Below are positions 48,379 through 53,927 of a DNA stretch of 64,000 bases, piece by piece. The DNA comes from Nitratireductor aquimarinus (lineage in GTDB: Bacteria > Pseudomonadota > Alphaproteobacteria > Rhizobiales > Rhizobiaceae), in NCBI RefSeq assembly GCF_017255295.1, contig NZ_JAFKDE010000003.1:434001-498000 (forward strand), written 5' to 3'. The notes under the pieces are model-generated. The model was not told the origin of the DNA and did no database searches. It saw only the letters and a list, made by a program, of their open reading frames with translations. A program made the translations under genes and the position numbers. The first letter of the stretch is position 1; each line of letters opens with the position of its first letter.

Positions 48379-49851
48379 CTAGCGGGCGGCAGCAAGCAGC
48401 GCGTCGCAGTCCAGATGCTCTTCAAGTTGCATGGCGATGTTATCCAGCGCCTGCTCGACCTGCGCGCGATAATTCGTTCCCCCCGTCTCGATGCCAAATT
48501 CCCTGAGGAATCGCGCCCGAAACGCGTCGGAGCCGAACAGACCGTGCAGATAGGTGCCCGTGACAAGGCCATCGCTGGATGTCGCACCGTCCGGGCGGTC
48601 GCCGATCATGGCCACCGGGCGGGCGCAATCCGCCCCTTCGGTCCGGCCGATATGGATCTCATAGCCGGACAGGGCCACGCCGTGGCGCGGAGAGAGCGCC
48701 TCCACCTCGCGCAGCGCCTTTTGCGGCTGCATCACCGTCTCCACATCGAGCAGCCCCAGCCCCTCGAAGCGCCCGGCCTCGCCCTCGAACCCTTCCGGAT
48801 CATCGACGCTGCGGCCAAGCATCTGATAGCCCCCGCACAGGCCGACAATGCGCCCGCCGCGCGCGTGATGCGCTTTCAGATCCTCATCCCAGCCCTGCCG
48901 GCGCAGAAACGCCAGATCGCCGATGGTCGATTTCGACCCCGGCAGAACGATCAACCCCGCATCGCGCGGCAGACGCTCCCCCGGCGGCACGAACACCACC
49001 TCCACCTCCGGCTCCGCCGACAGCGGATCGAGATCGTCGAAATTGGCGATGCGTGAGAGCATCGGCACGGCAACCTTGAGCTTCGCCGGCAAATGGCTCG
49101 CCCGTCGCGCCAGCGTGACGGAATCCTCCGGCGGCAGGCGGCTTGCGTCGGCCAGCCACGGCACCACCCCGAAGGAGGGCCAGCCGGTGAACCGGCCAAT
49201 CGCGGCAATCCCGTCATCGAACAGCGAGAGGTCACCGCGAAACTTGTTCACGATGTAGCCGACGATCATGCGCCGGTCTTCCTCGCTCAGGATCAGATGC
49301 GTGCCCGCGAGTGCGGCGATCACCCCGCCCCGGTCGATATCGCCGACCAGCACCACTGGCACGTCCGCCTGCGTGGCAAACCCCATATTGGCGATGTCAC
49401 GGGCGCGCAGATTGATCTCGGCGGGCGAGCCTGCCCCTTCGACGATCACCAGATCGGCTTCTTTGCGCAGCCGCTCGAACGATTCGAGCACCGGCCCGAT
49501 CAGCGCGCCCTTGCTGCGCTGATAGTCGCGCGCTCGCGCCGAGCCGCGCGAGCGGCCCTGCACCACGAGCTGCGCGCCCATGTCGCTCTCCGGCTTGATC
49601 AGAACGGGGTTCATGTCCACGCTCGGCGCGACCCCGCAGGCCAACGCCTGCAGCCATTGCGCCCGGCCGATCTCGCCCATCTCGTCGCCACCGCCCGGCA
49701 TCGCGGCAATCGCGGCATTGTTCGACATGTTCTGCGGCTTGAACGGGCGCACATCGAAACCCCGCCGCTTCGCCATCCGGCAGAGCCCGGCCACCAGCAC
49801 CGACTTGCCCACATCCGAACCCGTGCCCTGCAGCATGATGGCGCGCGCCAT
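48379..49851 (-). CDS. cobQ: Cobyric acid synthase (adenosylcobyric acid)
   Basis: A 490-residue amidotransferase that amidates four side chains of adenosylcobyrinic diamide in cobalamin synthesis. The N-terminal P-loop is [21 protein letters not shown], the family block [13 protein letters not shown] follows, and the C-terminal glutaminase has the nucleophile in [11 protein letters not shown] and a late histidine in TYLHGLFG. The start at 49851 gives [11 protein letters not shown]; ATGs 6 and 18 bp upstream are alternatives. No other cob gene is in the window, so the rest of the pathway is elsewhere. Confidence 0.92.
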
Positions 49852-49994
49852 GGTCATCCCCGTCTTCATCCTGTCCGCGCCCCAATCCTGTCCGCGTTTG
49901 ATGCACAGCGCCTGTGCCGCACCTCGCATTGCGCGGCCCACTCAATGCACTAAACTGATCCGACTGGGAAGATTTTCCATTTCGGGAGGACGTC

Positions 49995-51214: not shown

Positions 51215-52099
51215 ATGGCAACCATCGCATTCATCGGTCTCGGCAATATGGGCAACCCCATGGCCGCCAATCTGGTCAAGGCCGGGCACAGCGTTCAGGG
51301 CTTCGACCTGATCACGGAGAACCTCGAAACCGCCGCCAGCAATGGCGTCACCGTCATGGCCAGCGCCGAAGCGGCGGTGAAGGATGCTGCCGTGATCATC
51401 ACCATGCTGCCGGCGGGAAAGCATGTGCTCTCCGTCTATGCCGACATCGCCCCGAAAGCCGCCCGTGGCGCGCTCTTCATCGATTCCTCCACCATCGACG
51501 TGGAGTCGGCCAGAAAAGCCCACGCCATCGCCGCCGAAAACAATCTTCTCTCCATCGATGCGCCGGTCTCCGGCGGTGTGGGCGGCGCGGAAGCGGGCAC
51601 CCTCACCTTCATGGCCGGCGGCTCTGCCGACGCCTTCGCAAAGGCCAGCCCCATTCTGGAGCCGATGGCCGGCCGCGTCGTGCACTGCGGCGAAGGTGGT
51701 GCGGGCCAGGCCGCCAAGATCTGCAACAACATGATCCTCGGCATTTCCATGATCGGCGTCAGCGAGGCCTTCGTGCTGGCCGAAAAGCTCGGGCTCTCCC
51801 ATCAGGCGCTGTTCGACGTGGCGTCCACCTCGTCCGGCCAGTGCTGGTCGCTGACGAGCTATTGCCCGGTGCCCGGCCCCGTGCCCGCCTCACCCGCAAA
51901 CCGCGACTACAAGCCCGGTTTCGCCGCAGGCCTCATGCTCAAGGATCTGCGCCTTGCACAGGAAGCCGCGCAGGGCGCCGGCGCAGTTACGCCGCTCGGT
52001 GCGGAAGCCACCCAGCTCTACGCACTTTTCAACGCCATGGGCCACGAAGGCACGGATTTTTCAGGCATCGTGAATTTCCTGCGCGGCAAGGAAAGCTGA
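51215..52099 (+). CDS. mmsB: 3-hydroxyisobutyrate dehydrogenase
   Basis: A 294-residue beta-hydroxyacid dehydrogenase that oxidises 3-hydroxyisobutyrate to methylmalonate semialdehyde. The Rossmann motif is FIGLGNMGNPMAANLVKAGH, the substrate-binding block DAPVSGGVGGAEAGTLTFMAGG, and the catalytic lysine lies in GAGQAAKICNNM. It forms a valine-degradation pair with the acyl-CoA dehydrogenase upstream. The start follows CCGGAGGA. Its stop faces a 278-bp structured intergenic region. Confidence 0.93.
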   Translation: MATIAFIGLGNMGNPMAANLVKAGHSVQGFDLITENLETAASNGVTVMASAEAAVKDAAVIITMLPAGKHVLSVYADIAPKAARGALFIDSSTIDVESARKAHAIAAENNLLSIDAPVSGGVGGAEAGTLTFMAGGSADAFAKASPILEPMAGRVVHCGEGGAGQAAKICNNMILGISMIGVSEAFVLAEKLGLSHQALFDVASTSSGQCWSLTSYCPVPGPVPASPANRDYKPGFAAGLMLKDLRLAQEAAQGAGAVTPLGAEATQLYALFNAMGHEGTDFSGIVNFLRGKES

Positions 52100-52145
52100 A
52101 AAAAAATAGTCTGCCGGCAAAAAAGATGCGTTTTTATACTTCCCG

Positions 52146-52332
52146 CTAACCTCCCGGTAACCATGAGGGGCTAGAAATGACGTCGAGGCGGATTTGAAGC
52201 CTCCCCGACGCCGGAACAGGTCTCGCGTACCGGTACGGGAAGTTTTCGCAGCGTAGCGTATTTGCGAAGACAGCGTATTCGAGTAGCAAAAAACCGCGTC
52301 TCTTCCCGCCCGAAGAAACGCGGTTTTTTTTT
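52146..52332 (+). ncRNA. Candidate small RNA in the mmsB/aminotransferase intergenic region
   Basis: The 278 bp between two convergent genes carry a chain of structures. They are a hairpin CGTC-GAGGC...GCCTC-CCC-GACG (52181-52210), a 12-bp palindrome CGTACCGGTACG (52226-52237), a TTCGCA...TGCGAA hairpin (52245-52268) and a strong terminator with nine T residues (52288-52332). A TTATAC box at 52134-52139, with CTGCCG 17 bp upstream, could be its promoter. The CTCCCGG segment at 52151-52157 is unpaired in this sketch and pyrimidine-rich enough to pair with ribosome binding sites. The start is a guess. It could also be an extended mmsB 3' UTR. Confidence 0.45.
52288..52332. terminator. Strong bidirectional terminator
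   Basis: AAAAAACCGCGT pairs with ACGCGGTTTTTT and an inner TCTTC/GAAGA stem extends it. Nine T residues follow on the plus strand and a six-T run serves the minus strand. It can end mmsB or a small RNA on one side and the aminotransferase gene on the other. Confidence 0.93.
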
Positions 52333-52377
52333 GTGCTTGTGAGAACGCCGGGTGCACACACCCGGCTGCAAACCTCT

Positions 52378-53757
52378 CTACCCCTTCCGCAGATCCGCTT
52401 CCGCGCGATCAAGCGCTGCGCCGATCCGCTCGCAGGCCATGTCGATGGTCTCCCGCGTCCAGATCAGCGGCGGCGACAGGATCATCGTGTCGCCCACGGC
52501 CCGCATCATCAGCCCGCCGGAAATCGCATGATCGCGCACGCAGGAAGCCGCCGCGCCATCACCTGGAAAACGCGCCCGCGTTTCCCGGTCCGCCACGATC
52601 TCGATCGCCGCCATCAGACCAAAGGCCCGCACCTCGCCGACAATGCCGTGATCGCCCAGCCGCGCCTGAAGCGCTTTGGCAAAATAAGGCCCGGTGTCCG
52701 TGCGCACCCGTTCGACAAGCCCTTCACGCTCGATGATCTCCAGGTTCTTCAGCGCCACCGCACACGCCACCGGATGCCCCGAATAGGTGTAGCCGTGATA
52801 GAACTCGCCGCCCTTCTTCACCAGCGTCTCGGCAATCCGGTCGCCGACCAAAAGGGCCGAAAGCGGCTGGTAGCCGGATGTCAGCGCCTTGGCAGTCGTG
52901 ATGGTGTCGGGCTCAAGCCCAAGCCGCTCGGCCGCAAACCATTCGCCCGTGCGGCCATAGCCCGTGATCACCTCATCCAGCATCAACAGCACATCATGTT
53001 TCTTGCAGATGCGGTCGATCTCCGGCCAATAGCTTTCCGGCGGGATTTTCACGCCGCCGGCCCCCATCACCGGCTCACCGATGAAGGCGGCGACATTGTC
53101 CGGCCCGGCTTCCAGAATGGCGTCCTCCACGGCCTTCGCAGCGCGAAGGCCGAAATCATGATCGCTCTCGCCCTCTTCCCGCAGCTCAAACGCATAGGGC
53201 GGCATCACATGGGCGATGTTCGGCACTTCGCCATAAAGCTGGCCATGCATCGCCGACATGCCACCCAGCGACGTCGCCGCCACGGTTGAGCCGTGATAGG
53301 CCCAGTTGCGCGAGATGATGCGGTTCTTTTCCGGTCTGCCTTCCAGCGCCCAGTAATGACGCACCAGCCGCAGCGCAGTGTCATTGGCCTCCGAGCCCGA
53401 CGATCCGTAGAATACCTGGTTGATGTTGGCGGGCGCGATCTCCGCCAGTTTCTGCGCCAGAAGCACCGGCGTCGGCGTCGTGCAGCGGAAGAAGGAATTG
53501 TAGTAGGGCAACTCCTTCATCTGTTCACAAGCGGCCTCGGCCAGTTCGTCCCGCCCATAGCCCACATTCACGCACCACAGCCCCGCCATGCCGTCGAGGA
53601 TTTCATTGCCCTCCATGTCATAGACGAAAGGCCCGTCCGCGCGCGTCACGATGCGCGAGCCCGCAGCCCGCAGATCCGCGTGGTCGGTGAACGGATGCAG
53701 ATGGTGCGCAGCATCCATCGCCTGAAGCTGATCCAGGGAAAAATTCTTGTATGTCAT
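52378..53757 (-). CDS. Class III omega-aminotransferase (putrescine/SpuC-like)
   Basis: A 459-residue PLP aminotransferase. YGSSGSEANDTALRLVRHYW, MLDEVITGYGRTGEWFA and the Schiff-base lysine in TTAKALTSGYQPLSA are all present. The N-terminus DAAHHLHPFTDHADLRAAGSRIVTRADGPFVYDMEGNEILDGMAGLWCVNVGYGR matches the SpuC/omega-amino acid:pyruvate transaminase group. The start at 53757 (MTYKNFSLDQLQ) is taken; an ATG 27 bp upstream is possible. Likely substrates are putrescine, beta-alanine or related amines. It may share a transcript with the PhnD-like and desaturase genes upstream on the same strand. Confidence 0.87.
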   Translation of the reverse strand: MTYKNFSLDQLQAMDAAHHLHPFTDHADLRAAGSRIVTRADGPFVYDMEGNEILDGMAGLWCVNVGYGRDELAEAACEQMKELPYYNSFFRCTTPTPVLLAQKLAEIAPANINQVFYGSSGSEANDTALRLVRHYWALEGRPEKNRIISRNWAYHGSTVAATSLGGMSAMHGQLYGEVPNIAHVMPPYAFELREEGESDHDFGLRAAKAVEDAILEAGPDNVAAFIGEPVMGAGGVKIPPESYWPEIDRICKKHDVLLMLDEVITGYGRTGEWFAAERLGLEPDTITTAKALTSGYQPLSALLVGDRIAETLVKKGGEFYHGYTYSGHPVACAVALKNLEIIEREGLVERVRTDTGPYFAKALQARLGDHGIVGEVRAFGLMAAIEIVADRETRARFPGDGAAASCVRDHAISGGLMMRAVGDTMILSPPLIWTRETIDMACERIGAALDRAEADLRKG

Positions 53758-53927
53758 AGACTTGCTCTCTTCGCTTGAATTCATTCGGCAAGGCCGAAAA
53801 CCGGTTCAGGCGAAGAGCGGCGGTGAGTACCCTATGCGCGCGCAAAGCCGCAGAAGCTCCGTGTGCCGTGTGCGCGGCGACGGTCTGGCGGTCGGCAGTT
53901 TGGCGCTTGTCAGTGTTTGACGACGGC

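Follow-up and report, generated by a model that had tools for sequence, protein, structure and literature searches.

The DNA analyzed here, called the window, is a stretch of 64,000 nucleotides from Nitratireductor aquimarinus (contig NZ_JAFKDE010000003.1, positions 434,001 to 498,000). Within it, a 3-hydroxyisobutyrate dehydrogenase gene (mmsB) and a class-III aminotransferase gene converge on a gap that contains a promoter-like box, several hairpins, and a terminator (Table 1). A sequence-only reading had proposed a small RNA in this gap and gave its length as one argument. At 278 bp, it is the third largest of the 16 convergent gaps in the window when these are ranked between greedily called open reading frames of at least 100 amino acids; this rank makes length a weak argument for a small RNA.

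Table 1. Features of the gap, its surroundings, and selected loci in other genomes. Positions in loci L048 to L136 are those of the extracted locus.
Feature	Locus	Position	Strand	Remark
cobQ	window	48379-49941	-	2.2 kb from the RNA, opposite strand
mmsB	window	51215-52099	+	left of the gap
Gap	window	52100-52377		278 bp
Promoter-like box TAAC-N7-TAAC	window	52147-52161	+	CtrA-like direct repeat; putative regulator
CTCCC, first copy	window	52151		spacer of promoter box, before predicted start
-10-like element TAGAAA	window	52172-52177	+	TA in 57/57, first A of next AA in 51/57; putative function
Predicted small RNA	window	52184-52332	+	about 149 nt; 5' end predicted from -10 position
Hairpin 1	window	52185-52203	+	GAGGC/GCCUC here; stem sequence differs between genera; predicted fold
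CTCCC, second copy	window	52201		3' side of hairpin 1
Hairpin 2	window	52204-52239	+	core CCGG-loop-CCGG
Loop of hairpin 2	window	52215-52229	+	(A)UCAGGU-NN-YGCGUA
Palindrome	window	near 52223-52240
GCGUA copy 1	window	52225-52229	+	hairpin-2 loop
Hairpin 3	window	52242-52271	+	6/6 pairs changed on both sides
GCGUA copy 2	window	52251-52255	+	hairpin 3
GCGUA copy 3	window	52256-52260	+	hairpin 3
GCGUA copy 4	window	52273-52277	+	site of hairpin 4 in other genera
Terminator hairpin with nine T	window	52288-52332	+	8/10 pairs changed on both sides
Inverted repeat of terminator	window	52288-52305/52312-52329
Nine-T run	window	52324-52332
Perfect palindromic hairpin	window	52347-52366		GCCGGGTG-CACA-CACCCGGC; 3' of terminator, outside the RNA
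Class-III aminotransferase	window	52378-53784	-	right of the gap
cobQ-like gene	L111	1772-3143
cobQ-like gene	L113	1-1372
Cobalamin riboswitch match	L048	834-1072
Cobalamin riboswitch match	L062	956-1189
Cobalamin riboswitch match	L067	948-1180
Cobalamin riboswitch match	L052	4-241
Cobalamin riboswitch match	L061	1-189
Hairpin-2-like, terminator-like stem	L130	1218		other family
Hairpin-2-like, terminator-like stem	L133	1500		other family
Hairpin-2-like, terminator-like stem	L136	1500		other family

The predicted RNA folds at -58.4 kcal/mol, against a mean of -45.6 for shuffled sequences (z -3.36; none of 200 shuffles was as stable). The minus strand of the gap gave a z of -4.48 and the plus strand of 52100-52340 gave -2.62, so folding alone would favor the minus strand. 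Among the parts named by the sequence-only reading, the hairpins and the nine-T terminator with its inverted repeat are real, and the terminator hairpin could also be used by the minus-strand gene, with six T on that side. The palindrome at 52347-52366 falls outside the RNA; it has no counterpart in the nine other congeneric loci aligned, and its sole other site in the genome at up to two mismatches is on contig C6.

Relatives were searched for the element by DNA and by neighboring protein. A DNA search of 60 genomes found it in its own genome and in all nine others of the genus, mostly through the part of the query that ends near the terminator, and the core was matched in two genomes from other genera. 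A query with the dehydrogenase protein gave 80 loci among the matches listed, which were scanned with an nhmmer profile and a strict loop pattern; 40 provided new sequences, two were duplicates, and 38, including Microvirga, Bosea, Afipia, and Rhizobium records, lacked the loop pattern. The element lies 3' of the dehydrogenase gene in Mesorhizobium, Chelativorans, Pseudaminobacter, Aquibium, Phyllobacterium, Brucella, Ochrobactrum, Falsochrobactrum, and Nitratireductor. In all, the strict loop pattern yielded 52 distinct sequences, to which the DNA search contributed 12.

Covariance models were built on 43 (R1) and 57 (R2) sequences, and the window matches at 52172-52329 (105.1 bits, E 1.5e-27). 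Searching 397 genomes of the order with R1 at E 0.01 gave matches in 20 of the 21 genomes of the window's family, two of them weak, and in 27 of the 376 outside it, none better than E 2.3e-4. One genus, taken as Mesorhizobium, had matches in 145 of 146 genomes, including all 139 good ones, with one strong copy each; three genomes had an additional weak second match. With R2 at E 0.001, the element was found in 256 of the 297 family genomes, which span 98 of 109 genera and include 239 of 273 good genomes, and 41 had no match; judged by its members, the family sampled is the GTDB Rhizobiaceae. The element is mostly present in one copy per genome. Two R2 matches each were seen in G651, G654, G700, G710, G730, G779, and G801, where the RNA may be duplicated; both matches were strong in G651 alone (E 1.8e-18 and 1.9e-17). 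Three genomes of genus g55 have a weak match (E 7.8e-4 or better; the ten genomes compared at this step included one, G185, from another family), and two copies from this genus that were examined closely retain the promoter and hairpin 2, the rest having diverged. Among the rows listed, both sampled genomes in each of the genera g7, g10, and g21 lack an R2 match at E 0.001; these are possible losses, which could serve as natural knock-outs.

Covariation in relatives was assessed mainly with alignment A3, which covers all 57 sources and does not include the weak g55 copies L120 and L153. An earlier alignment, A1, covers 43 of the 52 element-bearing sequences; it omits L044, L053, L055, and L070 (terminator pattern), L040 (duplicate transcript part), and additionally L029, L035, L043, and L045. 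A further alignment of 72 matches that include weak antisense and partial ones (A2) was not used for counts. In A3, which was fitted to the model and so favors the structure in its counts, 90.4% of cells pair, against 38.6-45.6% when partners are slid by one to three columns. Two-sided change occurs in 26 of 33 pairs, vs. a mean of 17.5 in shuffles; the covariation score was 0.359 vs. 0.180, a value that none of 500 shuffles equaled. Because they come from related sequences, these counts are not independent. Hairpin 1 has two-sided change in four of its five model pairs. In hairpin 2, 95.5% of cells pair and the core pairs are nearly invariant. On A1, unaided RNAalifold recovered only the terminator and hairpin 2; on A3 it added hairpin 3, and it missed hairpin 1 on both. 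Folding of 43 sequences part by part placed a hairpin at the expected position in most, with some alternatives. The covariation analysis that the sequence-only reading had suggested thus finds compensatory change in the stems.

The same alignment bears on strand and coding capacity. A G-U pair on one strand is an A-C mismatch on the other, and G-U cells exceed A-C cells (142 vs. 59; 72 vs. 43 without the terminator), which supports the plus strand. The model matches the minus strand weakly (27.7 bits), mostly through the symmetric terminator. The symmetry and this weak match would suit a bidirectional terminator alone, with the other hairpins there by chance; covariation in hairpins 1 to 3 and an invariant promoter box refute this as a full account, and its probability is next to negligible. 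The spacing between the -10-like element and the loop ranges from 45 to 53 and that between the loop and the end from 89 to 120, without a multiple-of-three rule, which argues against a conserved reading frame. With its compensatory changes, conserved promoter-like box, terminator, and occurrence across the family, the segment 52147-52332 very probably holds a small RNA gene, as the sequence-only reading had proposed.

In the window and in the element-bearing dehydrogenase loci, the RNA lies 3' of mmsB on the same strand. This position favors a role as the 3' untranslated region of the mmsB mRNA, acting as terminator and stabilizer and perhaps processed off, a reading that is very improbable given that the element has its own conserved promoter box, that 38 of the 80 mmsB-type loci listed lack the loop pattern, and that the Rhizobium-type element is divergent from its upstream gene with no mmsB within the 3 kb examined. 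Neighbors differ among genera. In the Mesorhizobium loci examined, the element stands between mmsB and an opposing gene, and in the Brucella-type loci examined the next gene runs in the same direction as the RNA. In two Rhizobium-type loci (L111 and L113), a substrate-binding-protein gene diverges from the RNA on one side, and on the other a cobQ-like gene follows on the RNA's own strand after about 130 nt; in two genomes of 1.5-1.6 Mb, taken as Bartonella, the RNA adjoins tgt (genes in these loci were named by eye).

The Rhizobium-type arrangement would suit a cobQ leader (attenuator) acting in cis, which in the window's genus has become separated from its gene. This is extremely improbable: cobQ in the window is 2.2 kb away on the opposite strand, other genes come next in the Brucella and Mesorhizobium loci examined, and tgt adjoins in the two small genomes. 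A cobQ-like gene is near the RNA in the window, L111, and L113 with differing orientation, which we read as old synteny with rearrangement. In Brucella, Phyllobacterium, and related loci, cobalamin riboswitches precede the element by about 4-5 kb. The promoter-like box stays with the RNA while the neighboring genes differ, and the element is thus probably neither an mmsB 3' untranslated region nor a cis leader. Trans action would fit these differing neighbors.

The promoter proposed by the sequence-only reading is visible only through comparison: generic sigma-70 and terminator scans returned no sites, and the relatives reveal a conserved box. TAAC followed seven bases on by TAA is identical in all 57 upstream sequences, then come T and G (57 and 56 sequences) and a TA that starts 14 bases past the start of the second TAA (57/57). 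No sequence among the 52 had to be left out for want of this box. Further half sites (TTTAG, TTAAG) precede it in most genera with a phase of about 10-11 bp, which suggests a regulator of the OmpR family. The CtrA box is TTAA-N7-TTAA. NTAA-N7-NTAA is present in 57 of 57 sequences, and the second half is TTAA in L110 and L116 (two small-genome rows) only. CtrA appears to be the best-fitting candidate of that family, as far as the motif can tell. ChvI was considered and rejected, because its published motifs are TTGC-N3-GCAA or GCC-N8-GCC vs. the invariant TAAC-N7-TAA here; a literature search for ChvI with GTAAC found nothing relevant among the papers listed. The exact string TAACN6GTAACNATG occurs in the window's own genome at this locus only. 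With one mismatch there are five sites, three ending in TTAACCATG, against four for a reversed control; since this is hardly an excess, no regulon is claimed.

Hairpin 2, with the form CCGG-(A)UCAGGU-NN-YGCGUA-CCGG, is nearly invariant in A3. The motif GCGUA occurs 118 times in the 57 RNAs, or 2.07 copies each vs. 0.25 in dinucleotide shuffles, and the hairpin-2 loop accounts for 53 of these copies, hairpin 4 for 37, hairpin 3 for 25, and other places for three. The window's RNA has four copies, one at the site where hairpin 4 of other genera is barely formed in this species. The loop may be complementary to 23S rRNA. The literature searched, which lacked most subscription papers, contained no paper related to the loop strings. 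The main rival to base pairing as a mechanism is titration, in which the repeated GCGUA loops would capture an RNA-binding protein in several copies and not mRNAs. Repetition of the motif in loops of up to three hairpins, with at least two copies outside the terminator part in 44 of 57 RNAs, agrees with titration; 13 of 57 fall short of two such copies, two RNAs have none, and we know of no candidate protein. We consider titration unlikely, and pairing of the loops with mRNAs is the mechanism we retain.

A pattern for hairpin 2 was also sought in other families of the order. At up to two mismatches it was found in 15 of 376 genomes, five of these with one mismatch, vs. two of 376 for the reversed pattern. 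Eleven of these loci were inspected by eye; in three, the hairpin is closely followed by a terminator-like stem (Table 1), and the promoter box was absent from all 11. Several look like chance, and they are taken as a lead only; those with a stem are possibly a module common to other RNAs. A broader reading, in which the element is a core, mostly single-copy, CtrA-driven regulator of the family with one repeated GCGUA loop code, and its hairpin-2 module is reused in other families of the order with a terminator-like stem directly after it in some loci, is speculative and rather doubtful.

Known RNA families gave no identity for the element. The covariance search that the sequence-only reading had suggested found no match to Rfam 15 at the element where this was run: in the window, every family stays under its threshold, and within the gap even the best matches at up to E 5 fall far short. 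Ten loci searched at the gathering score had cobalamin riboswitches elsewhere only, and ten further loci searched up to E 1 had nothing at the element. BASRCI27 was rejected at 16 bits vs. a gathering score of 59.8, over 52281-52376 only. The ar45 RNA (Smr45C, RF02347) is similar in size (148 model positions) and occurs in the same family; it was rejected because it is a separate locus in six of six genomes (in G000, ar45 is at C4:137096-137243 and the element at C3:486172).

Some published rhizobial small RNAs resemble the element in part. EcpR1/SmelC291, described in the available sections of its report as a trans-acting RNA encoded beside divK-pleD, is likewise conserved in rhizobia, and its stable stem carries a strongly conserved loop; its loop motif is UCCGCCGCAUCU, in contrast to (A)UCAGGU-NN-YGCGUA, and it was rejected (PMC4414408). 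The anti-Shine-Dalgarno RNAs SmelA075 and SmelA099 also repeat one short motif in several loops, but from what their report gives in its available part that motif is CCUCCUCCC and not GCGUA, and SmelA075 has several copies per genome whereas the element mostly has one (PMC3927594). This class (CUCCC/CCUCCUCCC) was set aside because CTCCC is present in only 17 of the 57 aligned transcripts and there is no conserved C-rich loop motif; the same count gives no support to the unpaired CTCCC segment that the sequence-only reading took for a working part, and CTCCC was rejected as a seed. PmaR, like the proposed element, is a trans-acting RNA of the family working through its loop; the accessible text describes an RNA confined to Agrobacterium and one Rhizobium strain, whose single spoon-like stem carries a C-rich loop, so that structure and range both differ, and it was rejected (PMC6234868).

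The best link to published data is MH_s11 of Mesorhizobium huakuii 7653R, a 165-nt RNA by RNA-seq on the plus strand between convergent genes (1432008-1432172). It was among nine RNAs tested by Northern blot, and homologs were stated for Bartonella; MH_s22 and MH_s16 are likewise between convergent genes (PMC5596092, available portion). Compared by description only, MH_s11 agrees with the element in orientation, size, and Bartonella range, and it may be an ortholog that has already been detected. Its coordinates had no counterpart among the element sites listed for the 146 genomes. Entries of the type '-> -> ->', such as Bmsr3, are possible Brucella orthologs, going by the part of the source at hand (PMC9751625). 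The main text of the Sinorhizobium meliloti small RNA literature searched had no mention of SMc02737, cobQ, or choX; cobQ, cobyric, and glycine betaine were likewise absent from the literature searched for Agrobacterium tumefaciens and Rhizobium etli, and a search for a Bartonella small RNA with tgt found no paper. By a new RNA, we mean one that is in neither Rfam nor the literature searched, mostly without subscription papers.

On comparative evidence, there is an element here with a definite strand, structure, and promoter motif, and it is independent of its neighbors. The reading we prefer, and hold to be reasonably probable, is that 52147-52332 is a family-wide small RNA gene driven by a CtrA-like regulator, whose loops pair with several mRNAs in trans. 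A CtrA-like response regulator and the housekeeping polymerase would start transcription near 52184, and transcription would end at the nine-T terminator to give an RNA of about 149 nt. This RNA would fold into hairpins 1 to 3, a fourth that varies, and the terminator; it would display the nearly invariant hairpin-2 loop and more copies of GCGUA in other loops, and these loops would pair with UACGC-type sites of several putative target mRNAs.

Most of the genomes sampled from a family with nitrogen-fixing symbionts and pathogens encode the RNA, and it is probably important. It adds a family-wide RNA that has no match in Rfam 15 where tested. If the CtrA link is true, the RNA would give the alphaproteobacterial cell cycle a conserved RNA arm.
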